Shown: positions 5,229-56,158 of the stretch, in pieces
How positions within the stretch are numbered: the first letter of the stretch is position 1
How the letters are laid out: the number at the start of each line of letters is the position of its first letter
DNA from: Rhizobium vallis
GTDB taxonomy: Bacteria; Pseudomonadota; Alphaproteobacteria; Rhizobiales; Rhizobiaceae
Assembly (NCBI RefSeq): GCF_003985155.1
Contig: NZ_ML133693.1
Coordinates: 124,001-188,000 of the forward strand
Direction: 5' to 3'
DNA: 64,000 bases
Made by a program: the position numbers and the translations under genes
The notes under the pieces: model-generated
Told to the model about the DNA's origin: nothing
Database searches by the model: none
Seen by the model: the letters and a program-made list of their open reading frames with translations, nothing else

Positions 5229-6442
5229 GCTCACCTCAATCCACAATTCCCGTCGCCAAGCCCGTCCTCGGAGAGGAAGAGGCTGAGGCCGCGCGCCGCG
5301 TCATCCTGTCGGGATGGGTGACGCAGGGGCCGGAAGTCGCGGCCTTTGAAAAGGAATTCGCGGCCTTCGTCGGCGCCGAACACGCCTGCGCCGTTTCCAA
5401 CTGCACAACGGCGCTTCATCTCGCCTTGATGACGGTCGGCGTAGGTCCAGGTGACGAAGTCATCACGGTCAGCCATTCGTTCATAGCAACGGCGAATGCT
5501 GTTCGATACTGCGATGCTGTGCCCGTCTTCGTCGACATCGAGCCGGATGGCTACAATATCGACCCAAGGCTGATCGAAGCGGCAATCACGCCCCGCACCA
5601 AGGCAATCCTGTGCGTGCATCAGCTTGGCATGCCTTGCGATCTCCGTTCGATTGTGGAGATCGGCAAACACCATTCGATACCGGTTATTGAGGATGCTGC
5701 CTGTGCATCGGGAAGCGAAATCCTGTGGGACGGCCGCTGGGAAAAGATCGGCAAGCCGCATGGCGATATTGCCTGCTTCTCCTTCCATCCCCGAAAGGTC
5801 GTCACCACGGGTGATGGCGGTATGCTGACGACTGTGAATCCGGAATATGACCGAAAATTCCGGCTGTGGCGCCAGCATGGCATGAGCGTCACCGATGCTG
5901 TCCGCCACGGCTCGAAGCAGGTGATCTTCGAAGATTATGATGAGCTGGGCTACAACTACCGCATGACTGACCTCCAGGCCGCGGTCGGACGGGTGCAGCT
6001 GCGGCGGCTGCCGGAATTGGTCGCGCAGCGACGACGGTTTGCCTCGCAATATTGCGAGGGACTGTCCACGATCCCGGGCCTGTCGATTCCGGCCGAGCCC
6101 GGCTGGGCTCGCAGCAACTGGCAAAGCTTCTGCGTGAGATTGTCTGATGAAATCGACCAGCGGGCAGTCATGCAAGCGCTGCTGGATCAAGGGATTTCGA
6201 CGCGGCGCGGCGTGATGAACATTCATCTGGAAGGCGCCTATGCCGATCAGAGCTCCCATCGCGCCGCCACCAGCCTGACGCGAAGCGTTTCGGCGCAGCA
6301 GCAAACGGTCATCCTGCCGCTTTATGCCCAGATGACGGAAGTCGATATCGTCAGGGTCGTCGAGGCGTTGCGCCAGGCCCTTGCTGAGGCCAGCACCGGG
6401 GGCGCCCTCCGTCAGCCCGAGCGGGACGCCGTACCTGCCTGA
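5225..6442 (+). CDS. Second DegT/DnrJ/EryC1/StrS aminotransferase
   Basis: A 405-aa PLP-dependent sugar aminotransferase. It has VSNCTTALHLAL for phosphate binding, IPVIEDAACASGSE with the PLP Asp, and the Schiff-base Lys in CFSFHPRKVVTTGDGG. The HPRK-TTGDGG pattern resembles aminotransferases of the perosamine/bacillosamine type, which act at C4 of 4-keto sugars. With the preceding SDR it could form a 4-amino sugar, separate from the 3-amino sugar of the first trio. The start at 5225 overlaps the upstream stop. This is the last gene of the operon, followed by a strong hairpin. Confidence 0.88.
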   Translation: MSSPQSTIPVAKPVLGEEEAEAARRVILSGWVTQGPEVAAFEKEFAAFVGAEHACAVSNCTTALHLALMTVGVGPGDEVITVSHSFIATANAVRYCDAVPVFVDIEPDGYNIDPRLIEAAITPRTKAILCVHQLGMPCDLRSIVEIGKHHSIPVIEDAACASGSEILWDGRWEKIGKPHGDIACFSFHPRKVVTTGDGGMLTTVNPEYDRKFRLWRQHGMSVTDAVRHGSKQVIFEDYDELGYNYRMTDLQAAVGRVQLRRLPELVAQRRRFASQYCEGLSTIPGLSIPAEPGWARSNWQSFCVRLSDEIDQRAVMQALLDQGISTRRGVMNIHLEGAYADQSSHRAATSLTRSVSAQQQTVILPLYAQMTEVDIVRVVEALRQALAEASTGGALRQPERDAVPA

Positions 6443-6468
6443 AGTGATGCCTGCACACTGCGGCATGT

Positions 6469-6502
6469 GGAAAAGCGCGCATCATCTGATGCGCGCTTTT
6501 CC
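6469..6502. terminator. Bidirectional terminator between convergent genes
   Basis: A perfect 16-bp inverted repeat (6469-6484 and 6487-6502) with a 2-nt centre. The arms begin with GGAAAA and end with TTTTCC, so each strand reads a GC-rich stem followed by a T-run. It lies between the plus-strand aminotransferase and the stop of the minus-strand flippase. Confidence 0.85.
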
Positions 6503-45046: not shown

Positions 45047-46573
45047 TCAGTTCACCTTCTGCACCGCCGGCGGCGTCCACGAGCCGTCGATGACCGGCGT
45101 TTTCGGCCAGTAGGCGCGGACGAGGCATGAGAAGTCGCCTTTTGGAGCCGGCAGCCAGTTGGCCCGTTGCACCGCGTCCGTCGGCGCATCGGACTGCACA
45201 TAGATCGTGAGCGAACCGTCGGCAGCAAGCCTGAGGTCCCTGTTCTTGGTGCCGATCGAGAAGCGGTTGATCGGGTTGGCGATGAAGAAATGGTGCTCGT
45301 TGTAGATCGAGAGCGACCAGAATCCATTCACAGGAGGCGTTCCGTCCGGAGCGAACGTCACTGTATACCGGTTGGCGCTGTTGAGCCGTGCGCCCAAGGC
45401 ATCGAGGTCCTGATTGAAATACTTCGTCTCGTCGGGCGAGTTGACCAGGATGCTCGACTTCGCAACAGCCGTCCGCGTGAAATAATCCGTTCCAAACGCG
45501 GATTCGTTGGAAATCGTGCTCCAGTGGTGGGGCAGTTGCTGGCCGAAGTTACGGAACTGAAACAGCGGATTCACAAGCTTCTCTTCGGCATCTTTGGCGG
45601 CCTCGATCATCGCCTGCTTCATTTCCGGATTATCTTTGGCGGCGGCGAGCACGGCGACCACCTGCGCGTAGCGCGCCTCTTCGCCGGGGAGTGGCGGCGC
45701 ATCGGCAAGCACTGCCGGTAGTTCGTCGAAAAACTTCTCGGGAAACACCCACCGGGTTTCCTCTTCGCCGAGAGGGCCGCCGGGCACTTTTGGCAGCTTG
45801 CTCCAGTCGATGCTCTTCATCTGCCCGTCGTACTCGCCGAGCGGATACATCACGATCCCGGTCAGTACGCGCTGTATCGCGCGCTTATCTTCCGTCGTGT
45901 CGTCCTGGAAGATTCGCGGCGCGACAAGTCCCGTGTTGCTCGACGCGCGAAAAACTTCGGTGATTCCTTTCGGCACCTCATCATTCCAGTTGGGACCGGC
46001 CAGCAAGTAGAAGCCGGGAGTGGTGCCGTGCATCTTGCCGAGCTTGACGAAACTGTCGGTGCGCAGATCGACGATCTGGTAGACCCAGAAGCGATCGCCG
46101 AAATCCGGCACCTGAATGACCACCGGTGAAACATCCAAAGCGACCATTCCGAGGCCGTAAACCACGTCCTGATTGGGACAGGCGACGTTGCGCTCTTCCG
46201 GATCGACATAATCGGTGAGCATGGTGAGCCGATTGAGAGGTGCTTCGAGCAGAGGGCCGGTATACCTCTGTTCCTTCATCTGCGAGAACGCGAGGCGGCG
46301 GTTGTACATGTTGACCAGCGGCCAAGCCCAGAACAAGGCATCGCGCGCGACGTGGGCGGCATAGGCCTCGGTGATCTTCACACGCGCATCCGGGCCGGGA
46401 GGCAGTGCCCGGCTCCAGCCCGGCGACGGTGGCAGGGGCTGCGGATTCAGCGAGGATGTTTGCGCGCGTGCGACGGACGGCGCGCTGGTGCCGAGCACCG
46501 AAGCGGCCGCGAGCGTCGCGCCTCCGAGCAGGATGTCACGGCGGTCCAGAGTAAGATCGTTTCCATGCTTCAT
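45047..46573 (-). CDS. DUF1254/DUF1214 protein with Tat signal
   Basis: A 508-aa exported protein. The N-terminus has a twin-arginine signal (LTLDRRDILLGGATLAAASV). The mature part has the DUF1254 pattern (FWAWPLVNMYNRR near residue 75, then NQDVVYGLGMVALD and GDRFWVYQIVDLRTD) and a C-terminal DUF1214 domain (PPVNGFWSLSIYNEHHFFI then RDLRLAADGSLTIYVQ). The family has no established biochemical function that I can state. GGAGG lies 5 nt before the ATG at 46573. It is the third gene of a minus-strand set with a membrane protein and a second DUF1254 protein. Confidence 0.85.
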   Translation of the reverse strand: MKHGNDLTLDRRDILLGGATLAAASVLGTSAPSVARAQTSSLNPQPLPPSPGWSRALPPGPDARVKITEAYAAHVARDALFWAWPLVNMYNRRLAFSQMKEQRYTGPLLEAPLNRLTMLTDYVDPEERNVACPNQDVVYGLGMVALDVSPVVIQVPDFGDRFWVYQIVDLRTDSFVKLGKMHGTTPGFYLLAGPNWNDEVPKGITEVFRASSNTGLVAPRIFQDDTTEDKRAIQRVLTGIVMYPLGEYDGQMKSIDWSKLPKVPGGPLGEEETRWVFPEKFFDELPAVLADAPPLPGEEARYAQVVAVLAAAKDNPEMKQAMIEAAKDAEEKLVNPLFQFRNFGQQLPHHWSTISNESAFGTDYFTRTAVAKSSILVNSPDETKYFNQDLDALGARLNSANRYTVTFAPDGTPPVNGFWSLSIYNEHHFFIANPINRFSIGTKNRDLRLAADGSLTIYVQSDAPTDAVQRANWLPAPKGDFSCLVRAYWPKTPVIDGSWTPPAVQKVN

Positions 46574-46598
46574 TATGTCCTCCACTCACCAACGATGG

Positions 46599-47099
46599 CT
46601 AAGCTTGTGTCGGGACCGCATTCAACGCACGCCGAACCGCGTTGAACATTGCAACGGCACCGGCGAAGTAGACCGCAATGAAGAAGGCCTGTCCGAGCAG
46701 CCAAATGTTCTTCCCGATCAGAATCGGCGAGTAGTAGTAACCCGGCCAGATTGCATCGAAGACGAAATATCCGGGATAGCCGATGGCGAAGACGCCAAGC
46801 AGGCCGATGATGCAAAGCCAGAGGGCCGCCGAGCTCTCCGGTTCGGCCGCAGCCGGCGATATCCGCGCAGCGACCATGCTCGTTACCCCCATCGCCGTCA
46901 TGCCGAGCCCACCGGCTTGCACGGCGGCAACCGAGAGCGTCCATGGGCACGCCCACCACAGCGTGATGTTCTGCATGAAGAGTTCGCCGGTCGGCCAGCG
47001 GGCGCCGACGCAATAATGCGCAACAATGCCGAAGGTCAGGAACACGCCGAAGATGAAGAGGCCGAGCCCCCATTTCGCGAACCGCGCGGCAATTCTCAT
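46599..47099 (-). CDS. Small integral membrane protein (unknown)
   Basis: A 166-aa protein with about four transmembrane helices (FIFGVFLTFGIVAHYCVG, WTLSVAAVQAGGLGMTAMGV, LWLCIIGLLGVFAIGYPGYF, GQAFFIAVYFAGAVAMF). I do not recognise the family. It sits between two DUF1254 genes with gaps of 15 and 25 bp and has a GGAGAG site, so it is probably co-translated with them. It may anchor or assist the exported DUF1254 proteins. Confidence 0.75.
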   Translation of the reverse strand: MRIAARFAKWGLGLFIFGVFLTFGIVAHYCVGARWPTGELFMQNITLWWACPWTLSVAAVQAGGLGMTAMGVTSMVAARISPAAAEPESSAALWLCIIGLLGVFAIGYPGYFVFDAIWPGYYYSPILIGKNIWLLGQAFFIAVYFAGAVAMFNAVRRALNAVPTQA

Positions 47100-47114
47100 G
47101 ATACTCTCCGTCTA

Positions 47115-48515
47115 CTAGACCGAGACTTTCTCCACGTCGGGCAGCTTCCACGTCTTCTTCTCGAAGAATTCCGGCTTCGGCCCGTACAGCCGGAACATGA
47201 ACTCGAACTTCCTTGCCGGGTCAGTTGGAATCCAGTTCGATTCCTGGCCCACGGGCGCCTTGGAGCCGATGTAGAGATCGACGGAACCGTCCGGGTTCCT
47301 CCTTAGCTCCTTGGTATTCGAGGCCCGGCTTGCGCGGTCGACGTTCTTGATCAACGCATGCGTCTCCCGGTCGTAGGCCGTCAACGACCAGTACTGGTCG
47401 ACGGGAACATCCGGTGGAACGTGCAGCCGATAGGTCTTCGCCCCGTCGTAGCCATTGCCGTCCTTGTCGCGGATCGAAATCAGGTAGAACTGGCCGGCGC
47501 CGAGGCGTTTGATCGAAATATATGCGTAGGTGTAGCCCAGGCCTCGGGCGTCGACGGCGTACTTGCTCTTGTCGGCATAGGTAGTGCCTTGACCCTCGAT
47601 TGCTTCGGGAAGGGCAGGCAAAGTCCAATGGCTGCCTTCCCAGAAGGCGGGGAAGCCGACATCGTAGCGGGCAGCAAGCAGCTGCTTAGCTTCGCCGATG
47701 GCGGTGTTCAGGATCGCCCTGGCGGCCTCGTCGGGCGCGAAGGGCTTGCCTTTCTCGATGCCGATCGTGCGCAACGGGTCGATCATCGCCCGGTCGCGAT
47801 CGATCCAGGGCTCACTCTGAATGATCCCGTCGAGTTTTTCGTAGAAACTCACGTCGTAGCGGATAGTGCTGTCGAAATTGACGTCCTTTACGTCGGTGAA
47901 CACCGTTTCGGGTGGGTTCGCTGCAGCGGAGAGCGGATAGAACTTCACACGCTTGGCGTAGGCGATCGAGGCGGCAACGTCGGCCTCGCTGTGGCTCTTC
48001 AGGTTCGAGCGTATCAGCGCATAACCGCCATAGGTATCGGAGCGCAGCGGGCTGTACGCTTCGGGGACCTGATCGGCATAGCCCGGCGGCAGGAGGACGA
48101 ACTTGCCGCCCCTGCCTTTGTCGACTCCGAGCAGGCCGACATCCTCCAACGATGTCTGCCATTGCGTGACGATATTGCCGTTGAGCGAGCCGTTGGCGTC
48201 GCCCGGCGGCACTTCGAGCACCATCGGACCGTCCTTAACATCGAAGAAGCCCATGAAGTAGAGTGTGTCCGGATTGGGCGTCAGCGTCTGGTTATGCCAG
48301 TCGAGCGGCCCGCCCCAATAGATGAACTGGTTCACCTTGCCGGGGGTCTTGGTCAGCATCTCCTGGCGCATCAGATCGGTGTTGACGGCAGGCATGCCCC
48401 AGATCGCGGCTTGCACCGCGCGGCTGTGGGTCAGTTGCTCTTCAACCGATTGCGTCTCGCTCCGTGCGAAGGTCGCCAAGCAAACAAAGGAAAGTGCTGT
48501 AAGAACCGCCCTCAT
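47115..48515 (-). CDS. DUF1254/DUF1214 protein with Sec signal
   Basis: A 466-aa paralogue of the protein at 45047, about the same domain order: DUF1254 (AIWGMPAVNTDLMRQEM near residue 35, then NPDTLYFMGFFDVKDGPMVL) and DUF1214 near the C-terminus (DQYWSLTAYDRETHALIK, NPDGSVDLYIGSKAP). A Sec-type signal (AVLTALSFVCLATFARS) replaces the Tat signal of the other copy. I start at 48515; a GTG-type extension of five codons has a poorer site. It heads the three-gene operon. Function unknown. Confidence 0.82.
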   Translation of the reverse strand: MRAVLTALSFVCLATFARSETQSVEEQLTHSRAVQAAIWGMPAVNTDLMRQEMLTKTPGKVNQFIYWGGPLDWHNQTLTPNPDTLYFMGFFDVKDGPMVLEVPPGDANGSLNGNIVTQWQTSLEDVGLLGVDKGRGGKFVLLPPGYADQVPEAYSPLRSDTYGGYALIRSNLKSHSEADVAASIAYAKRVKFYPLSAAANPPETVFTDVKDVNFDSTIRYDVSFYEKLDGIIQSEPWIDRDRAMIDPLRTIGIEKGKPFAPDEAARAILNTAIGEAKQLLAARYDVGFPAFWEGSHWTLPALPEAIEGQGTTYADKSKYAVDARGLGYTYAYISIKRLGAGQFYLISIRDKDGNGYDGAKTYRLHVPPDVPVDQYWSLTAYDRETHALIKNVDRASRASNTKELRRNPDGSVDLYIGSKAPVGQESNWIPTDPARKFEFMFRLYGPKPEFFEKKTWKLPDVEKVSV

Positions 48516-48827
48516 CTCCGTTCCCCCCAACGTCTCAGATCATACCAGGGGAGGAGTTTGAACCTCATCACCGCCACCTCCTGATTGTATTCAGACAAGC
48601 TAATGGAAGATTTGGCAAAGGCAAGCGTAATCAACGATCGCCCGCTTCTGGGCAGCAGACGGCGAGTTCGATCCGCGTATGACGTGAGATAACAGTCGTG
48701 GCGGTTGGCATTTTGGACTTTCAGGCGATTGCGGCGATAGGGCGGGGCAGCGGTAGAAACGGTGGCCCCAAAATCGCATCGGCATTCTGCTCGAACGGCA
48801 GCAGTATCCAGCCATCTGCGCTCGCGC

Positions 48828-48847
48828 GGGAGTACCTCACTTTAAAC
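48828..48847 (-). promoter_or_regulatory. Degenerate copy of the 19-bp element, facing the DUF1254 operon
   Basis: On the minus strand this reads TTTAAAGTGAGGTACTCCC after a G. It matches the best element (upstream of the sulfatase) at 15 of 20 positions, keeping GTTTA and GTAC. It is about 310 bp before the DUF1254 start, so function is less sure. Confidence 0.35.
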
Positions 48848-48879
48848 GTAGACCTGGCTCAGGCGTAAATGAGTGGAGA

Positions 48880-48898
48880 TTTACGGTAACGTACTTCC
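48880..48898 (+). promoter_or_regulatory. Shared 19-bp regulatory element (copy upstream of small protein)
   Basis: TTTACGGTAACGTACTTCC, about 60 bp before the ATG at 48960. Nearly identical elements precede the outer-membrane protein, FGE and sulfatase genes. A CGTAAAT lies 15-20 bp upstream, similar to extra half-sites at the other copies. Confidence 0.65.
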
Positions 48899-48959
48899 CC
48901 GGCTTCACAGCATGCGCATAATCCGTCGATCAACTATGGCCGGGAGGCCGGACGGTCTG

Positions 48960-49259
48960 ATGGACAAGCAGAGCGGCACCGACAGCAACGGTTCCGGGGC
49001 CGCCCAAAGGGGGTTGTGGCGGCTCATGCTGAAGCTGCCTGCCATGCGCGGACGGCTTCAGCTTCTGGCGGCAAAATCATCCTCCCTGGACGATCTCTTC
49101 GAGGCCTATGAGGAGGCCAGCGCCACTCTGGAGCGGATGTCACGGGCGCGCACCAGGGACGAATGCCCACTTATGGAAGAATACGAAACCGTCTGCGCCG
49201 AGATTGAATCCGATGTCATCCACTATGTTCTCCAGCACCCTTTGAACGGGCGACATTGA
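48960..49259 (+). CDS. Small hypothetical protein (99 aa)
   Basis: A 99-aa soluble, mostly helical protein (LQLLAAKSSSLDDLFEAYEE, then a CPLMEEYETVCAEIESDVIH segment with two Cys). I place the start at 48960: the frame is open further upstream, but those codons cover the regulatory element at 48880-48898. GGGAGG lies 12 nt before the ATG, a rather long spacing; ATGs at 48912 and 48936 are alternatives without clear sites. I do not recognise the family. It is followed after 126 bp by the possible membrane-bound regulator. Confidence 0.55.
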   Translation: MDKQSGTDSNGSGAAQRGLWRLMLKLPAMRGRLQLLAAKSSSLDDLFEAYEEASATLERMSRARTRDECPLMEEYETVCAEIESDVIHYVLQHPLNGRH

Positions 49260-49385
49260 CACATCGTTCGGGCCGAGATCGATCGAGTTTAGGTTTCAAT
49301 AGCGCTCCATATTGCAACTTATCGCTATCTCGGCCATAAATTAGCTTGTTCTACTTTAGCTTAAACAAGGTGTGCGGGGGCGGCC

Positions 49386-51119
49386 ATGAATGCTGAAGTA
49401 CACGACTTGAAGGCGTGTGAAGTTCCCACCGCCGAAGCCAGGGCCGAACTCGAAAGGTTGCTTTCCGACAGTCGCTTTCGGGTCACTGAGCGCCAGAAGG
49501 ACATCCTCAGATATTTGGCCGAGCGCCGGTTCAACGGCTGCGAAGAGGGGGTGAAGGCCTATTCCCTGGCGGTTGATGTTCTCGGGCGGCCGAGCGGCTT
49601 CGATGCTTCGATCGATCCGATCGTGCGCATCGAGATCAGCCGCCTGCGATCGGCGCTTGACGCCTATTACCAGGCATTCGGGGCGGCCGACAACGTCACC
49701 ATCCACATTCCGAAGGGCATGTATATCGCCCTCTTCCCGGGGACTTTGATCCCGCACGGGCCGGAGGATGAGATCCATACCGGTTCGGAACCGGCCGTTG
49801 AAAGCAGGCCGCCGGTCTTAATGCCCGAAGCTCCCGTTCAGCCCGTGCGCCCGCGCAATGGAATTCGCCTGGCAGCGGTTGCGGCAGGGCTCGTCGTTGC
49901 GATCGGCGCTGTCGCGGGCGTTAAACTGTTCGTCCAACGACCTGCCATGACGAAGAAGCCGACCGTCTACGTCATGATGACAGCCGCCGAGGCCGGGATG
50001 CAGCGTGAAGCGAGCCAGACGCGCGACACATTGATGACCGCGCTCACGCAATTCACGACGCTGACCATCGCCAAGCCCGGTTATTCCCATGTCCGTTCGG
50101 GCGCCCGGTCCGGCAGAAGCTACGAAATCGATATGAAATATTACGCGGATGCTGACGACCGGAGCATCTGGTGGCAGATCGCTGACAGCGAAACGGGCGA
50201 TCTCCTCAAATCCGGCCTTGAGAAAGTGGATGTCAGCGGCAAGAGCCCGGCTTCGGTGCGGGAGGAAATGGCCGCAGGACTGGCGCAGCACTTCGCGGCC
50301 ACGCGAGGCGTCATCAACAGTATCGAGATCCATGACAGCCCGGATGATGCGCTGGGCAATGCCTGCATTTTGCGGGCGGAGTACGCGCTCGACGAAGGCG
50401 GTGCGGACCGGGTGACGAGGAGCAGGGATTGTCTGGAGCAGAGCCTGGCGGCGGCCCCGGGAGATCCGGATGCAAGGGCTCTCCTTTCGCGGGTGCTGCT
50501 TGCCGGCAAAGGCGCTTCGCTTGATCCCGCGGTCAGATCGCGCGCAATGGAACTTGCCAAGAGCGCGGTTTCGTCGGCCCCGATGTCGGACAGGGCGCAG
50601 GTCGCGCTGATGGCTGCGCAGTTTTCAGCCGGGCGCACGGAGGCGGCCGTCCAGGCCGGGAACCGCGCCGTCGAACTCAATCCGAACAACGGCGATGCAG
50701 CGGCAAAACTCGCTTTGGTGCTCTATCTCTCGGGTTACAAGGATGCCGGTGTGGCGATGGCCCGAGATGCAGGCCGCTTCGTGGAAACGGCGCCGCGCGA
50801 CGCCATGCTGGTGCGAGCGCTCGACGCCTATCGGACCGGGCGCTACTCGGAGGCATCGCTGCTGGCCGAGCAGATCAACTGCACGGATTTCATGGTGGCG
50901 ACGCTGAGAGCCGCCGCCCTTGGCCAACTGAGTTCGCCGGAGGCGCATGAGCGGCTCTCGGAGATCAGGAGCAAGGACCCGGCATTCGAGCGAACCTTTC
51001 ACGACAGGGTAGCGTCCTGGCGCCTGCAGCCGGATATCGCCGCCGAGCTGGAAGCCGGTCTGATCAAGGCCGGAGCACAGGTCGATCCGGGCGCCGTTTC
51101 CAGCATAACGACGCCGTAG
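49386..51119 (+). CDS. Membrane-anchored protein with possible DNA-binding N-terminus and TPR-like C-terminus
   Basis: A 577-aa protein. Residues 20-118 match an N-terminal domain seen in rhizobial adenylate-cyclase-like/TolB-TPR proteins (RQKDILRYLAERRF, VKAYSLAVDVLGRPSGFDAS, DPIVRIEISRLRSALDAYY, IHIPKGMYIALF), which looks like a winged helix. One transmembrane helix follows at about 160-183. The C-terminal part has a periplasmic alpha/beta region and TPR-like helical pairs (ARALLSRVLLAGKG, AVELNPNNGDAAAKLALVLY). This layout resembles CadC/ToxR-type one-component regulators. It could act on the 19-bp element found around it, but DNA binding is inferred. Confidence 0.65.
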   Translation: MNAEVHDLKACEVPTAEARAELERLLSDSRFRVTERQKDILRYLAERRFNGCEEGVKAYSLAVDVLGRPSGFDASIDPIVRIEISRLRSALDAYYQAFGAADNVTIHIPKGMYIALFPGTLIPHGPEDEIHTGSEPAVESRPPVLMPEAPVQPVRPRNGIRLAAVAAGLVVAIGAVAGVKLFVQRPAMTKKPTVYVMMTAAEAGMQREASQTRDTLMTALTQFTTLTIAKPGYSHVRSGARSGRSYEIDMKYYADADDRSIWWQIADSETGDLLKSGLEKVDVSGKSPASVREEMAAGLAQHFAATRGVINSIEIHDSPDDALGNACILRAEYALDEGGADRVTRSRDCLEQSLAAAPGDPDARALLSRVLLAGKGASLDPAVRSRAMELAKSAVSSAPMSDRAQVALMAAQFSAGRTEAAVQAGNRAVELNPNNGDAAAKLALVLYLSGYKDAGVAMARDAGRFVETAPRDAMLVRALDAYRTGRYSEASLLAEQINCTDFMVATLRAAALGQLSSPEAHERLSEIRSKDPAFERTFHDRVASWRLQPDIAAELEAGLIKAGAQVDPGAVSSITTP

Positions 51120-51185
51120 GGCAACGCCAGTGCTGGTCGATCCCGACGGTAAAGGCTTGCCAAAGCAGCGTAATTTACGGCGCCG

Positions 51186-51204
51186 TTTACTGTAACGTAC
51201 TTCC
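51186..51204 (+). promoter_or_regulatory. Shared 19-bp regulatory element (copy upstream of outer-membrane protein)
   Basis: TTTACTGTAACGTACTTCC, 70 bp before the start at 51275. An additional ATTTAC lies exactly 12 bp upstream of the GTTTAC of this copy, and GTACTT is 12 bp downstream of it, giving a 12-bp phasing. Confidence 0.65.
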
Positions 51205-51274
51205 CGGCGAGCCTCCGGCGATGTTCCTATGCAAGCGCGGCACCATGAGACTGTAGAGGAAAGGAACATCTGCG

Positions 51275-52057
51275 ATGCGATCGACTGCAGTCTGCCTGTC
51301 ACTGCTGCTGCTTGCTGTCTCTTCACCGGTGAAGGCCGCCGATATCGCGCCGCTCGTTGCGCCGCAGCCGAAGCCCGAGGAAGCGGACCGCTGGAGCTTT
51401 TCCGTATCGCCATATTTCTGGGCTGCCGGGATCACCGGCGACAGCGGCGTCTTCGGGCTGCCCGAGGTTCATACGAACGAGAGCTTCGGCGATGTTCTGA
51501 AAGGCATCGACTTCGGCTTCATGATGGCCGGTGATGCCCGCTACGGGCCCTACAGTATCGTTGGCGATGTCACCTACGCCAGGATCACGACGGACTCGGC
51601 GACGCCGAAGGGCGTGCTGGCCGACGAAGTCGACCTCAAATCCGAAACCTTCACGGCAATGCTTGGCGTCGGCTATTCGGTTCTCGAGGACGAGAAGGGC
51701 AGGCTTGATGTCATCGGCGGCGTCAAGCTGTGGTCGGTGGAGACGACGATTTCTTTCAATGGCGGGCCGCTTGATAACATCTCGAATCGCGATGACGCGA
51801 CCTGGGTGGATGCCATGGTCGGCCTGCGCGGCGTGTATTCGATCACGCCGACCGTCTATCTCACGGGATGGGGACTGATCGGCGCCGGCGGAGCCGACCT
51901 CGACTGGGACGTCATGGGCGGCATCGGCTATAAATGGAACGATTCCATATCAGCTTTCCTCGGATACCGCGCGCTCGGTGTGAACTACAGCAACGGCAGC
52001 CTGACCAACGACATCGTCGAGCACGGCCCGATCCTGGGCGCCGTCTTCCACTTCTGA
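51275..52057 (+). CDS. Outer-membrane beta-barrel protein
   Basis: A 260-aa protein with a signal peptide (STAVCLSLLLLAVSSPVKAA). Alternating amphipathic strands run through it (WSFSVSPYFWAAGITGD, DVTYARITTD, AMLGVGYSVLED, GIGYKWNDSISAFLGYRALG) and it ends in an aromatic residue (GAVFHF), the usual outer-membrane insertion signal. It resembles small OmpA-like/porin-like barrels of about 8-10 strands in rhizobia. It carries the shared upstream element and is convergent with the HAD phosphatase gene. Confidence 0.78.
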   Translation: MRSTAVCLSLLLLAVSSPVKAADIAPLVAPQPKPEEADRWSFSVSPYFWAAGITGDSGVFGLPEVHTNESFGDVLKGIDFGFMMAGDARYGPYSIVGDVTYARITTDSATPKGVLADEVDLKSETFTAMLGVGYSVLEDEKGRLDVIGGVKLWSVETTISFNGGPLDNISNRDDATWVDAMVGLRGVYSITPTVYLTGWGLIGAGGADLDWDVMGGIGYKWNDSISAFLGYRALGVNYSNGSLTNDIVEHGPILGAVFHF

Positions 52058-52106
52058 AACCTGCGGTGGTTTGCGTGACGATCCGCCTGGAGGCGCATCG
52101 GCCACA

Positions 52107-53114
52107 TCACTGCTCGAAGGCGAAGATCTTTTTCCAGTCGTTCTTCATGTCGACGACCAGCCAGTTGCGCCGCTCGGCTTCATCGAGCGCCTTGTCCAGC
52201 TTGCCGATGGATGATTGCCGGTCATAGGCATATTCGCGGTTGCCATCGGTATGGTGGACGATCATCGCGAAGCTCGGCTCCTTGGCGGCAGTCGTCCAGC
52301 GCAGCATCTCGTAGTCCCCGTCCGAATTTCCTGCGGCGAAGATCGGCTTCCGGCCGATGAACTTGTTGATGCCCACTGGCTTGCCCGGGCCGTCGTCGAC
52401 GAAGTCGACCTTCGGCAGCCGGTTCAGCACCGGCTCGTCATCGACGAGGTCGTACTGCGTTACGATCGTGCTGCCGACCACCTGCTGGGGCGGGATGCCG
52501 TAAAGCTTCTCCGTCACCGGCCGCATGAACTCGACGCCGCCGCCAGACACAATGTAGGTGGTGAAGCCGTTGGCGCGCAGGTATTCCAGCAGTTCCCGCA
52601 TCGGGAGATAGGTCATCTCGGTATAGAGCCTGCCGGTCTTCGGATGCTTTGCAGCCGCAAACCAGTCGTTGACGATCGTGTTGAACTGATCCGTGGTCAT
52701 GCCGGCATGGGTTGCCATGCCGAGTTCCACGATGCCCATCTCGCCGCCCTTTGCTATTCCCTTCAGGTCGTCGTCGAGAATGCTCTTGAACGGCTCCTTC
52801 GTCTTCCATTCGGGATGCTGCGGGGCGAGCGCCTTCACGCGGTCGAGCATGAAGCCGAGCTGGATATAGTAGGGCTGTTCGCACCAGAGCGTCCCGTCAT
52901 TGTCGAAGACGGCGATCCGGTCGGCTGGCGCGAAATAGCCCTCGCCGCCCTCCGTCACGGTCGCCTTGACGAAATCCATGATGCGGCTTCTGGCAGCCGT
53001 ATCATTCCATGAGGGAAGGGGTTCCTGCGAAAAGACGGGCTCGGCCGCGACGAGGGTGAGGGCGGCCGTCAGCGAAGCGAGGATCTTGGCAACCATGTGA
53101 AGCGCCTCGTTCAT
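52107..53114 (-). CDS. Exported HAD-family phosphatase
   Basis: A 335-aa haloacid dehalogenase-like hydrolase. A signal peptide (ILASLTAALTLVAAEPVFSQ) targets it to the periplasm. Motif I is VFDNDGTLW with nucleophile Asp 71 and acid Asp 73; motif II Ser is in YIVSGGGVEF; motif IV is AGNSDGDYEML. It resembles phosphoserine-phosphatase-like HADs. The start overlaps the FGE stop (ATGA), so it is co-translated with FGE. Substrate unknown; it could act on a phosphorylated product liberated along with sulfate. Confidence 0.82.
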   Translation of the reverse strand: MNEALHMVAKILASLTAALTLVAAEPVFSQEPLPSWNDTAARSRIMDFVKATVTEGGEGYFAPADRIAVFDNDGTLWCEQPYYIQLGFMLDRVKALAPQHPEWKTKEPFKSILDDDLKGIAKGGEMGIVELGMATHAGMTTDQFNTIVNDWFAAAKHPKTGRLYTEMTYLPMRELLEYLRANGFTTYIVSGGGVEFMRPVTEKLYGIPPQQVVGSTIVTQYDLVDDEPVLNRLPKVDFVDDGPGKPVGINKFIGRKPIFAAGNSDGDYEMLRWTTAAKEPSFAMIVHHTDGNREYAYDRQSSIGKLDKALDEAERRNWLVVDMKNDWKKIFAFEQ

Positions 53115-54091
53115 CCGGTTTCTCCTCGAACCTCAACTCTTTTGACGCAGCGAAAGCCGACATGGCTCGTCGAGGTGTCTTCCGGTTCGGCGTGGCGTGC
53201 CGCCGGTCGGTAGCGCCGGCAATAATTCGGGGCGCAGAGATGTGAGCCGCCCTTGAGGACACGCCTTGCAATCCGGATCTCGGGCTGGTTGGGATCGTAG
53301 CTCGCCTCGGTATCGCCGCCCCGAGGATTGTTCGGGATGCAGCAGCTCTTGGCCGCCGGTTCCGGATGCCGGGTGGTCCAGTAGTCGCCGGTCCATTCCC
53401 AGACGTTGCCGATCATGTCGTAAAGGCCGTAGCCGTTCGGCGGAAACGATCGGACCGGCGATGTCCGCTCGTGGCCTTTCGGCTTGGTCGAATGCGTCGG
53501 AAACGTTCCCTGCCAGGTGTTGGCCATGAGCTTGCCGTCCGGCATCAACACCTCGCCCCAGGCGAACTCGGTGTCGTCGAGCCCGCCGCGGGCGGCAAAC
53601 TCCCATTCGGCCTCCGTCGGCAGATCGAGACCCGCCCAATCGGCATAGGCCTTTGCGTCAGACCAGGCGACGTGCACGACCGGATGGTCGAGCTTGCCAC
53701 GCAAGTCGCTCAGGCCGCCGAGCGGCCGGCGCCAGTTGGCGCCGAATTTGAAAGTCCACCATTGCGAAATATCCGGCCCGCTGACCGCTTTCGGCTGAAC
53801 GAAAAGCAGCGAGCCGGCCCGCAACATTTCCGGAAGCGCGCCCGGATAGTCCCGAGGGTCGGGCGCTTTCTCCGCCATCGTGACATGATCAGTCGCCTTG
53901 ACGAATTCCGCGAATTTGCGGTTCGTCACCGGCGTCTCGTCGATCCAGAAACCGTCGACCTTCACAGGGTGGGCGGGCGCTTCCTCGGGATAGTGGCGGT
54001 CCGAACCCATGACGAAGGTGCCGCCGGGCATCCAGATCATGCCGCCCTGCGCCCGGCCGGGCGTTGCAACCTCGTCGAATGCCAAAGCCAT
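53111..54091 (-). CDS. Formylglycine-generating enzyme (sulfatase-modifying factor)
   Basis: A 326-aa FGE/SUMF1-family protein. The start region has MIWMPGGTFVMGSD, the middle has PTEAEWEFAARGG and GYGLYDMIGNVWEWTGD, and the active site is GGSHLCAPNYCRRYR with Cys 286 and Cys 291, the copper-binding pair used to oxidise the sulfatase Cys to formylglycine. I choose the ATG at 54091, with GGAGG 5 nt upstream; longer starts (54118, 54172) run into the 19-bp element. It lies 140 bp downstream of the sulfatase gene and is coupled to the HAD gene. No signal peptide, so it would act in the cytoplasm before export. Confidence 0.9.
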   Translation of the reverse strand: MALAFDEVATPGRAQGGMIWMPGGTFVMGSDRHYPEEAPAHPVKVDGFWIDETPVTNRKFAEFVKATDHVTMAEKAPDPRDYPGALPEMLRAGSLLFVQPKAVSGPDISQWWTFKFGANWRRPLGGLSDLRGKLDHPVVHVAWSDAKAYADWAGLDLPTEAEWEFAARGGLDDTEFAWGEVLMPDGKLMANTWQGTFPTHSTKPKGHERTSPVRSFPPNGYGLYDMIGNVWEWTGDYWTTRHPEPAAKSCCIPNNPRGGDTEASYDPNQPEIRIARRVLKGGSHLCAPNYCRRYRPAARHAEPEDTSTSHVGFRCVKRVEVRGETG

Positions 54092-54141
54092 CACCGCCTC
54101 CGGTTTCCTGCACGGCATGTTCGCGCGCGCTCCGCCGCCGG

Positions 54142-54160
54142 GTAAGTACGCAACGGTAAA
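54142..54160 (-). promoter_or_regulatory. Shared 19-bp regulatory element (copy upstream of FGE)
   Basis: On the minus strand TTTACCGTTGCGTACTTAC, 50 bp before the FGE start at 54091 and between the sulfatase and FGE genes. Further ATTTAC and GTAAAT half-sites lie upstream within 50 bp. Confidence 0.65.
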
Positions 54161-54233
54161 TGGCGCCGGCATTTACGTTAGCGGATTTGTAAATGCCGGC
54201 GTCGGCGTCCCTTGCTTCGCGGAAGTCAGGCCG

Positions 54234-55868
54234 CTACTGCGCGTTGGCCGGGCTCTGGTCCAGTGATCTCATCAGCGCCTCGACCATTTGGTCGACGCTG
54301 AAGCTCGCCGGGCGCTGGCTTGGCGGGTATTCACGGAAGGTCTGAAGGAAAGGCGCCACGCGCCAGACACCGTACTGTATGAGGTAGGCGTTCTTGGCGA
54401 GCCAGTCGTAGTACTGGTCCGACACGACATCCGCCCGTTCATACGGGTCCATTCTCAGGTTGAAGACCTTCGGAGCACGCAGGCAGACGAACGGGTCGGC
54501 CCATACCGTGAAACCACCCGGTTGACGCTGCTCGCAGAAGACGATCTTCCAGTTGGTATAGCGATAGGCGACCAGCTCGCCATCGTCGTTGAAGTAGAAG
54601 AACTCATCGCGCGCCGACTTGTCCTGTTTACCCGTCAGGTAAGGCAACTGGTTGTAGCCGTCGAGATGCACCTTGAACTGATTGCCGCCGATCGTCGTGC
54701 CTTTTGCAAGTTTTTCCTTGATGGCGGGATCGCCGGCCGCTGCCAGCAGCGTCGGGAACCAGTCCAATCCCGATATCATCTGATTGGAAACCTCGCCGGC
54801 CTTGATCTGCCCCGGCCAGCGCACCATTGCCGGAACACGGAAGGCACCTTCCCAGTTCGTATCCTTCTCGCTGCGGAACGATGTCGTGGCGGCATCCGGC
54901 CAGGACCACTGGTTCGGGCCGTTGTCGGTGGTATAAACGACGATGGTGTTGTCGGCGATATTAAGGTCGTCCAGCGCCTTCAGCAGCTTGCCCACGTCGC
55001 CGTCATGCTCGATCATGCCATCGGCATATTCGTTGCCCGGCATGCCGCTCTGGCCTTTCATCTCTTCCCTCACATGCGTGTAAACATGCATACGTGTCGT
55101 ATTCATCCAGGTGAAGAAGGGTTTGCCGGCCTTTGCCTGCCGGCCCATGAAATCGATCGCGGCTGCCGTCGTCTCGTCGTCGATCGTTTCCATGCGCTTG
55201 GTGTTCAGCGCACCCGTATCCTCGATCTTGCCATCAGCCGACGCCTTCAACACGCCGCGCGGTGAACTGGTGCGGACGAACTCCTGGTCGTCCTTGGGAT
55301 AATAGGGCCGCTCCGGCTCCTCCTCGGCATTCAGATGGTAGAGATTGCCGTAGAATTCGTCGAAGCCATGCTTGGTCGGGAGATATTCGTCGCGGTCGCC
55401 GAGATGGTTCTTGCCGAACTGGCCCGTCGCATAGCCGAGCGACTTGACTGCCTGAGCGATCGTGATGTCACGCGATTGCAGGCCAACGGTCGCGCCGGGA
55501 ATGCCGACCTTGCAAAGGCCGGTGCGCAGGCAGACCTGGCCGGTGATGAAGGTGGATCGCCCGGCGGTGCAACTGTTCTCGGCATAGTAGTCCGTGAACA
55601 TCATGCCTTCCCTAGCGATGCGGTCGATATTCGGCGTGCGATAGCCCACCAGGCCGAAGGAGTAGGCGCTGATATTCGTCTGGCCGATGTCGTCACCGAA
55701 GATGACGAGAATATTGGGCTTCGATGTATCCTGAGGTGTTGCGGGTTCGGCGGCCGGAGCGGGGGTAGCCTGCTGGGCCACCGCGGAGGAGAGAAAGGTC
55801 GTCGATGCCAACGTCATCGCGACTGCGACCGTCGCCGAAAACAGCTTCTGGGGAAGGGATATCGTCAT
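54234..55868 (-). CDS. Periplasmic arylsulfatase-family sulfatase
   Basis: A 544-aa type I sulfatase. A signal peptide (ATVAVAMTLASTTFLSSAVA) is followed by the metal-binding Asp pair in VIFGDDIGQTN (59-60) and the formylglycine motif CTAGR (Cys 100), a CxAxR variant of CxPxR. FGKNHLGDRDEYLPTKHGFD carries the conserved Lys/His, and VVYTTDNGPNQWSW the second metal Asp/Asn pair. It should hydrolyse a sulfate ester in the periplasm, after activation by the FGE encoded next door. Substrate unknown. GGGGGA lies 7 nt before the ATG. Confidence 0.9.
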   Translation of the reverse strand: MTISLPQKLFSATVAVAMTLASTTFLSSAVAQQATPAPAAEPATPQDTSKPNILVIFGDDIGQTNISAYSFGLVGYRTPNIDRIAREGMMFTDYYAENSCTAGRSTFITGQVCLRTGLCKVGIPGATVGLQSRDITIAQAVKSLGYATGQFGKNHLGDRDEYLPTKHGFDEFYGNLYHLNAEEEPERPYYPKDDQEFVRTSSPRGVLKASADGKIEDTGALNTKRMETIDDETTAAAIDFMGRQAKAGKPFFTWMNTTRMHVYTHVREEMKGQSGMPGNEYADGMIEHDGDVGKLLKALDDLNIADNTIVVYTTDNGPNQWSWPDAATTSFRSEKDTNWEGAFRVPAMVRWPGQIKAGEVSNQMISGLDWFPTLLAAAGDPAIKEKLAKGTTIGGNQFKVHLDGYNQLPYLTGKQDKSARDEFFYFNDDGELVAYRYTNWKIVFCEQRQPGGFTVWADPFVCLRAPKVFNLRMDPYERADVVSDQYYDWLAKNAYLIQYGVWRVAPFLQTFREYPPSQRPASFSVDQMVEALMRSLDQSPANAQ

Positions 55869-55987
55869 GACGCCGTCCCCCCTGATAGATCGTTCAACAT
55901 TGCAGTCTCCCTTGTCGGGCGGGCGCTGCCGCCGGATAATCGTCGTCAGGTGACGCCGGAGGAGACTTGATCTTTACGGAGACGAGC

Positions 55988-56006
55988 GGAAGTACGTAAC
56001 GGTAAA
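55988..56006 (-). promoter_or_regulatory. Shared 19-bp regulatory element (copy upstream of sulfatase)
   Basis: On the minus strand TTTACCGTTACGTACTTCC, 119 bp before the sulfatase start. Two more GTTTAC half-sites lie upstream at 22 and 34 bp, consistent with binding in about 11-12-bp steps. Confidence 0.65.
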
Positions 56007-56158
56007 CGCGCGTGTATCTGGGCGTAAACGCTGAAGTAAACGCGTGGATTTGTGCGTCAGCGGCTTGGATTGCGGATCCGTCTGCAGCGTTTCGCCGACA
56101 TCGGTCTCACGGCCGGCTTGCGCAGCGGCTCCTTGGCGATAGCCAGCGGCTCAACTTG

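Follow-up and report, generated by a model that had tools for sequence, protein, structure and literature searches.

A conserved 19-bp promoter element and its candidate membrane-anchored regulator in Rhizobium vallis and related bacteria

Regulators of the ToxR/CadC type are membrane-anchored one-component proteins with an OmpR-like winged helix, and membrane-anchored regulators with the OmpR fold are mostly activators. Class I sulfatases carry the motif C-x-(P/A)-x-R, usually with proline at the third position, and formylglycine-generating enzymes (FGE) have a C-terminal cysteine pair with a functional role. Here we describe a locus with features of both systems in a 64,000-nucleotide stretch of Rhizobium vallis (assembly GCF_003985155.1, contig NZ_ML133693.1, positions 124,001 to 188,000 of the forward strand; hereafter, the window). 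A 19-bp element recurs there ahead of genes for a sulfatase, an FGE-like protein with a HAD-family hydrolase, an outer-membrane-barrel-like protein, and a small helical protein followed by a candidate regulator (49386, named after its first position). The element is a real, widely conserved promoter element. The 49386 protein probably reads it as an activator, at activator-dependent promoters that have the -35 region built into the element.

The original prediction for this DNA knew of no description of the motif. A survey of the open-access literature at the level of titles and the first part of abstracts, a scope outside which most subscription journals fall, returned nothing that describes the motif or a regulator of this kind. 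A choline-sulfatase of R. tropici is reported to be induced by acid shock (PMC5936775).

The 19-bp element and its promoter context

The consensus first proposed for the element matched without mismatch at four positions of the window (elements 1 to 4, Table 1), each in the orientation of the gene it precedes and 61, 70, 50 and 119 bp ahead of the likeliest starts (48960, 51275, 54091 and 55868, respectively). No other match was present in the window when up to three mismatches were tolerated, a setting at which shuffled sequences give an expectation of 0.02. The whole R. vallis assembly (7.11 Mb, estimated 99.98% complete) contains five matches with at most one mismatch, the four window copies and a site at C1:427409, and two more with three mismatches. 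The C1 site lies 62 bp upstream of a gene that clusters with the DUF1254 genes of the window. R. chutanense C5 carries three of the four window elements, together with the sulfatase locus, in L076. A matrix trained on 160 sites with at most one mismatch, which leaves out the window's genome and L018/L076 and favours strong sites, scores the four elements at 32.7–36.0 bits. Chance is rejected as the source of these copies.

The element extends well beyond R. vallis. With up to two mismatches, the initial pattern found a match in 44 of 100 genomes; outside the genus, 7 of 40 genomes had one match each, and six of these, among the matches listed, all had two mismatches. A broader consensus than the one first stated, KTTACNGTWRCGTACTTMC, describes the sites. 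Allowing one mismatch, it matched at 241 sites, spread over 32 of the 60 genomes of the same genus (R. vallis included), versus 5 for the reversed pattern. A scan of named-species genomes returned at least 118 stretches, most from Rhizobium and Rhizobiales. The matches listed also include carriers in Neorhizobium, Ensifer, Phyllobacterium, Ochrobactrum/Brucella, Endobacterium and Aureimonas, as well as 11 from unrelated groups. Of 205 distinct sites, 176 were kept once 29 near-duplicate or truncated ones had been dropped, and the removal of 10 matches from unrelated groups left 166. An Acidobacteriaceae bin (L119) is among the groups left out of the promoter statistics, the matrix and the gene counts.

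Using gene calls from a simple script trained on the window, the nearest downstream gene boundary within 300 bp was a same-strand start at 134 of the 166 sites and an opposite-strand end at only 2 (4 sites were too close to a contig edge and 26 had neither boundary). The original prediction had named many random genomic matches as the sign of a spurious motif; instead, matches were rare and linked to promoters. The same evidence bears on whether the copies could be relics of a mobile element or of a dispersed repeat, an origin that we reject. Genomes do hold several copies in variable number, as a repeat would, but 176 of the 205 sites are left after the removal of truncated ones and of those with flank identity above 60%, and their position and orientation track promoters. 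The flanks do not align, so the resemblance among sites stops at the element and its half-sites.

Apart from the ambiguous K, N, W, R and M, the 19 positions of the element are nearly fixed, and so is the distance to a -10-like signal. A hexamer with A in second and T in sixth position starts at offset 37 in 40 and at offset 38 in 61 of the 166 sites (mean of 8.9 per offset), and a -10-like hexamer with at least four of six matches occurs at offsets 36–39 in 45 sites, versus 4–13 at shifted offsets. In R. vallis, elements 1, 3 and 4 and the C1 site are followed by the A/T pattern at offset 37 or 38, but element 2 is not. With the -10-like signal at offsets 37–38, the spacer measures about 17 bp and the trailing TTMC falls at the -35 position. 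Thus, the 19-mer is not a pure operator, because it includes the -35 region. Fixed spacing to a -10-like signal and strict orientation would also be seen if these promoters were recognised by an alternative sigma factor of the extracytoplasmic function (ECF) type, with the element as the -35 part. We consider this very improbable: 19 nearly fixed bases and phased half-sites to about 50 bp upstream far exceed a -35 element, and in its A2/T6 pattern the -10-like signal resembles ordinary sigma-70 promoters, although no search for sigma-factor genes was made.

The upstream half-sites are a second regular feature of these promoters. The 60 bp ahead of the 166 sites hold 116 direct and 76 inverted TTTAC or GTTAC half-sites, compared to about 12 and 13 in shuffled sequences, and 17 in both orientations lie downstream; divergent copies of the element account for some of those upstream. 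Direct half-sites peak at -13 to -11 (54), -23 to -21 (16) and -34 to -32 (14). The half-sites of the window, for which a spacing of about 12 or 22 bp had first been read, lie at -12 (element 2), -22 and -34 (element 4) and -33 (element 3); for element 1, the sole half-site is inverted and lies at -15. We also considered a TetR-like palindrome, as the KTTACNGTWRC part resembles an inverted repeat, but judged it less likely. A directional reader better suits the CGTACTTMC block, which does not vary, the promoter geometry, which is fixed, and the direct half-sites found at -12.

The same regulator could bind the same site as a repressor, blocking the -35 region until a signal releases it. The conserved block overlaps the -35 position and a site precedes the regulator operon, and both arrangements are common for repressors. 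However, the half-sites are stacked upstream (192, direct and inverted, versus 17 downstream, with the reservation about divergent copies made above), as for activators. Furthermore, the -10 hexamer is weak, reaching four of six matches in just 45 of 166 sites, as at activated promoters, and most membrane-anchored regulators of the OmpR fold activate. Repression is, on balance, unlikely.

The candidate regulator and its co-occurrence with the element

The original guess of a winged helix in 49386 is backed by fold prediction and by co-occurrence with the element. The model of residues 1–125 (pLDDT 80.7) matches the winged-helix fold, which has a long recognition helix and a C-terminal hairpin; this is a fold match and not a proof of function. 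Its 13 best Foldseek matches are all OmpR/PhoB-type domains (probability 0.92–1.00), with SaeR as the best (1.00, E 0.013). Structural Z scores reach 8.1 for PrrA, 7.7 for PhoB on pho box DNA (1gxp) and 6.6 for the CadC domain 5ju7, and 6.2–6.5 for other winged helices (ScpB and Zur). None of 25 N-terminal domains matched Pfam Trans_reg_C (PF00486) at E up to 1, so the 49386 domain is not filed in that Pfam family, and a Protein Data Bank sequence search with the DNA-binding profile gave no match. Beyond this domain, a single stretch is strongly hydrophobic (mean hydropathy 2.3 over 19 residues, with the peak at residue 165), and the C-terminal part is TPR-like.

Regulator and sites occur together. 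A close relative of 49386 (E below 1e-100) is encoded in 23 of the 60 genus genomes, all of which have 4–17 sites, whereas 28 of the other 37 have no site, 5 have 1–2 and 4 have 4–11 (Fisher 1.7e-9, a value that overstates the case because related genomes are not independent). A further 21 rhizobial-order genomes, hand-picked from the 19-mer match list for taxonomic spread (16 with other-genus names, three Rhizobium), carry 1–12 sites each. The DNA-binding domain is present in all of them at 155–188 bits, including 12 genomes that had given no sequence to the profile (the other nine had). In 17 of the 21, a site lies 0.4–0.8 kb upstream of the regulator in the same orientation, the exceptions being G103, G112, G115 and G117. 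The best domain reads E-x-(S/T)-R-L-R in 20 of these genomes (N in G112), and paralogs of the regulator, also in genomes that have sites without a close relative, read mostly EAG-R.

Matches in unrelated groups follow a similar division. Ten of the 11 genomes have one site each, and no regulator type was found in them. The eleventh, the Acidobacteriaceae metagenome bin (G129:C16; L331, L332, L119), has two exact sites and, 0.5 kb after one of them, a 175-bit domain with the small protein between. The bin's regulator shares the E-x-(S/T)-R-L-R signature (as S-R-L-R) and is 60% identical to that of L060. The module in this bin may reflect horizontal transfer or misbinning.

Conservation at orthologous loci, on which the original prediction had also staked its case, was found at the sulfatase. 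An exact site lies about 100–150 bp before the aligned start of all 21 orthologs (≥72% identity) fetched from regulator-bearing genomes, versus none of the 3 from genomes without a close regulator (G029, G030 and G039). For distant sulfatases (54–58% identity), an exact site is present both in G014, which has the regulator, and in G033, G038 and G059, which lack a close one; it is absent in G053 and G055. The broken sulfatase copy of G024 was not among the fetched orthologs. In two regulator-bearing genomes, the sulfatase ortholog is found in separate matching pieces, as if frame-broken (G049:C2:514018-515648 and G024:C216:19245-20625).

These distributions also bear on whether another transcription factor reads the element, with 49386 merely a frequent member of its regulon. 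G033, G059, G038 and G030 keep 4–11 sites without a close relative of 49386, as expected if the true reader were elsewhere, and the sites of G033 are not visibly decayed, as 6 out of 11 match exactly. However, G033 retains a relic of the regulator N-terminus (22 amino acids, 82% identity to that of L081) within a deletion scar (L185, G033:C3:18000-32000, approximately 5840-6480) flanked by element copies with 0–1 mismatch, and in G059 (L188) a deletion affects the same place. Judging from these sequences, the deletions account for both genomes as natural cases of regulator loss with surviving sites. A C-terminal regulator fragment beside the sulfatase of G030 suggests that the regulator was lost there too. 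Furthermore, the regulator type accompanies the element in all 21 further rhizobial-order genomes and in the sole unrelated genome with two sites, and the split at the close sulfatase orthologs (21 of 21 versus 0 of 3) follows the regulator. Another reader is therefore improbable. We also looked for a hidden regulator in eight exception genomes with the profile at E up to 1 and rejected this explanation: the strong matches read were EAG-/EAA-type paralogs and the G033 relic, and the rest had E above 0.1 (one match, in G016, was left unread).

Several observations weigh against 49386 as reader and activator. Sites persist in 9 of the 37 genus genomes without a close relative (11 in G033, 5 each in G038 and G059, 4 in G030 and 1–2 in five others). 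G038 shows no regulator trace with the DNA-binding profile, and its five sites are not accounted for. G033, G038 and G059 each have an exact site before a distant sulfatase (54–55% identity). Conversely, G002 has a homolog with T at the signature place but without the preceding E, yet no site with at most one mismatch. Among the promoters, 22 of 166 sites fall inside a called gene, good -10-like hexamers are confined to the 45 sites noted above, and an operator that overlaps the -35 region would be suited to a repressor too. Lastly, the fold match is moderate (the best Foldseek E value is 0.013 and no Z score exceeds 8.1, where Z under 8 can mean a common arrangement), and the N-terminal domain has no Pfam or NCBIfam match. 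The lack of such a match means that proteins of this kind may often escape recognition as transcription factors.

Genes behind the element and features of the window

A called gene lies within 250 bp of 134 of the 166 sites. Named from family representatives, these targets include 31 sulfatases, 25 DUF1254/DUF1214 proteins, 14 small helical proteins of the type that precedes the regulator and 12 FGE. Less frequent are MoxR ATPases and DUF3300 proteins (6 each), barrels like 51275, DUF900 proteins and an unassigned 274-aa family (4 each), and MscS channels, Phenol_MetA_deg proteins, OpuAC-type binding proteins and metallo-type alkylsulfatases (3 each). DUF2092 and SBP_bac_3 proteins (2 each) and 12 others complete the set. 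The regulon had been predicted to be centred on sulfatases. Their number, together with the 12 FGE and 3 alkylsulfatases, agrees with this; the DUF1254 genes, however, follow closely in number and widen the regulon beyond what the description implied. Within the window, the FGE assignment rests on PF03781 (E 2e-81) and a CAPNYC stretch in the translation, and that of the formylglycine-dependent sulfatase on PF00884 (E 8e-48) and CTAGR, the alanine form of C-x-(P/A)-x-R.

A degenerate fifth copy had also been proposed, facing the DUF1254 operon. A match on the minus strand and in that orientation is indeed there, but the listed DUF1254 start is about 300 bp away from it, and the copy looks decayed. 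With 3.0 bits, it is the fifth-best matrix score of the window and is barely distinguishable from chance, as the best of 20 random windows reached 2.5 bits. Divergent copies with 0–1 mismatch, about 60 bp from the main site, are present in L038, L075, L081 and L131; in L038, L075 and L131 they face an MscS-like channel gene, whereas the gene faced by the degenerate copy of the window is a DUF1254 gene. From this comparison, the fifth copy is probably a decayed divergent site.

The small protein between element 1 and 49386 is modelled as four helices (pLDDT 84.9), and a fold search with the model gave no convincing match (best E 0.96). Relatives (E up to 1e-5) are encoded in 45 of the 60 genus genomes, and G000 has a paralog at C9:70365. 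Regulator paralogs with an EAG-R recognition helix also occur in G000, at C9:51034-53705 and C9:79734 (L211 and L212). Two of these paralogs are divergent, and the set may represent parallel circuits with other boxes. In Ochrobactrum/Brucella-named genomes and one of Rhizobiales (L066, L102, L143 and L153), the same gene follows the element copies with a near-identical leader sequence, and each genome has a divergent pair of copies upstream of the regulator.

Table 1. Positions of the element copies, promoter signals and genes discussed in the text (window coordinates).
Feature	Position	Strand	Remark
Element 1 (TTTACGGTAACGTACTTCC)	48880..48898	+	Precedes small protein and regulator
Element 2	51186..51204	+	Precedes outer-membrane-barrel-like gene
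Element 3	54142..54160	-	Precedes FGE-HAD
Element 4	55988..56006	-	Precedes sulfatase
Degenerate fifth copy, 4 mismatches	48828..48846	-	Probably a decayed divergent site
-10-like CATAAT, offset 37 from element 1	48917..48922	+	Sequence; peak of offsets across the 166 sites
Direct TTTAC half-site at -12 of element 2	51174..51178	+	Sequence; -12 peak
TTTAC half-site, 33 bp upstream of element 3	54189..54193	-	Sequence
TTTAC half-sites at -22 and -34 of element 4 (12 bp between them)	56024..56040	-	Sequence
Small helical protein, 99 aa, no Pfam/NCBIfam match	48960..49259	+	Relatives precede the regulator gene elsewhere
Candidate reader (49386): predicted winged helix at residues 15-119, hydrophobic segment ~159-183, TPR part ~386-490	49386..51119	+	
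260-aa protein without Pfam match; apparent signal peptide; barrel-like by eye	51275..52057	+	
HAD-family hydrolase, apparent signal peptide	52107..53114	-	4-bp overlap with end of FGE gene
Formylglycine-generating-enzyme-like protein, PF03781, CAPNYC cysteine pair	53111..54091	-	
Sulfatase, PF00884, active-site stretch CTAGR	54234..55868	-	
DUF1254/DUF1214 genes (47115-48530 and 45047-46585)	45047..48530	-	Faced by degenerate fifth copy

Proposed mechanism and comparison with known systems

The element, its promoter context and the company it keeps are consistent with the following model. The 19-mer would be the promoter-proximal part of an activator-dependent promoter, in which KTTACNGTWRCGTAC acts as an operator with half-sites of the (T/G)TTAC and CGTAC types at a distance of about 10 bp; the -35 element would be the trailing TTMC, about 17 bp ahead of the -10-like hexamer. 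The upstream TTTAC half-sites, spaced about 11–12 bp apart, would load more regulator on the same face of the DNA. The topology that we infer for 49386 places the OmpR/PhoB-like winged helix in the cytoplasm and, past one membrane segment, the C-terminal TPR domain in the periplasm. In this position, the protein could sense an envelope or substrate signal, bind directly to the operator and recruit RNA polymerase to the promoters of the sulfatase, FGE-HAD, barrel and DUF1254 genes. It would also control its own operon, which is headed by the small helical protein, perhaps a partner or modulator of the regulator.

It is possible, at somewhat short of even chances, that the locus belongs to a signalling family of rhizobia and relatives that has not yet been described. 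In such a family, a transferable module composed of the small protein and the membrane-anchored TPR/winged-helix receptor would directly drive a cross-genus envelope and sulfate-ester regulon via the -35-fused box, and the module would have reached even the Acidobacteriaceae bin. The paralogs, mostly of the EAG-R type, would then run circuits in parallel, in some cases together with a small protein of their own, and would read other boxes, set by the recognition helix.

As read here, the element links mostly uncharacterised envelope genes and sulfate-ester genes in one control circuit. This provides a testable regulon for DUF1254, DUF900, DUF3300 and DUF2092 genes and for sulfatases in rhizobia and their relatives. 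Moreover, the analysis supplies a likely regulator, a box that hardly varies together with its promoter geometry and, as a natural experiment, genomes in which the regulator was lost and the sites were kept.

The sulfatase and FGE genes are neighbours (PF00884 and PF03781), as in class I sulfatase systems, and each follows a copy of the element; the sulfatase differs in its CTAGR stretch, with alanine where proline is usual. Like PhoB at the pho box, the proposed reader would use direct-repeat half-sites about 11 bp apart beside a -35 region, and 1gxp is among its best fold matches. However, 49386 lacks a receiver domain, the TTTAC/CGTAC box is unrelated to the pho box, and the -35-like TTMC lies inside the box. 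Regulators of the ToxR/CadC type share with 49386 the predicted OmpR/PhoB-like N-terminal fold, the single hydrophobic segment followed by a C-terminal domain, and repeated half-sites upstream of promoters. Unlike them, 49386 has no Trans_reg_C match, ends in a TPR-like domain, shares its operon with a small helical protein and is associated with another box. Taken together, these comparisons suggest that the regulon works like that of a ToxR/CadC-like one-component regulator, and that the box, the membership and the DNA-binding family are new.

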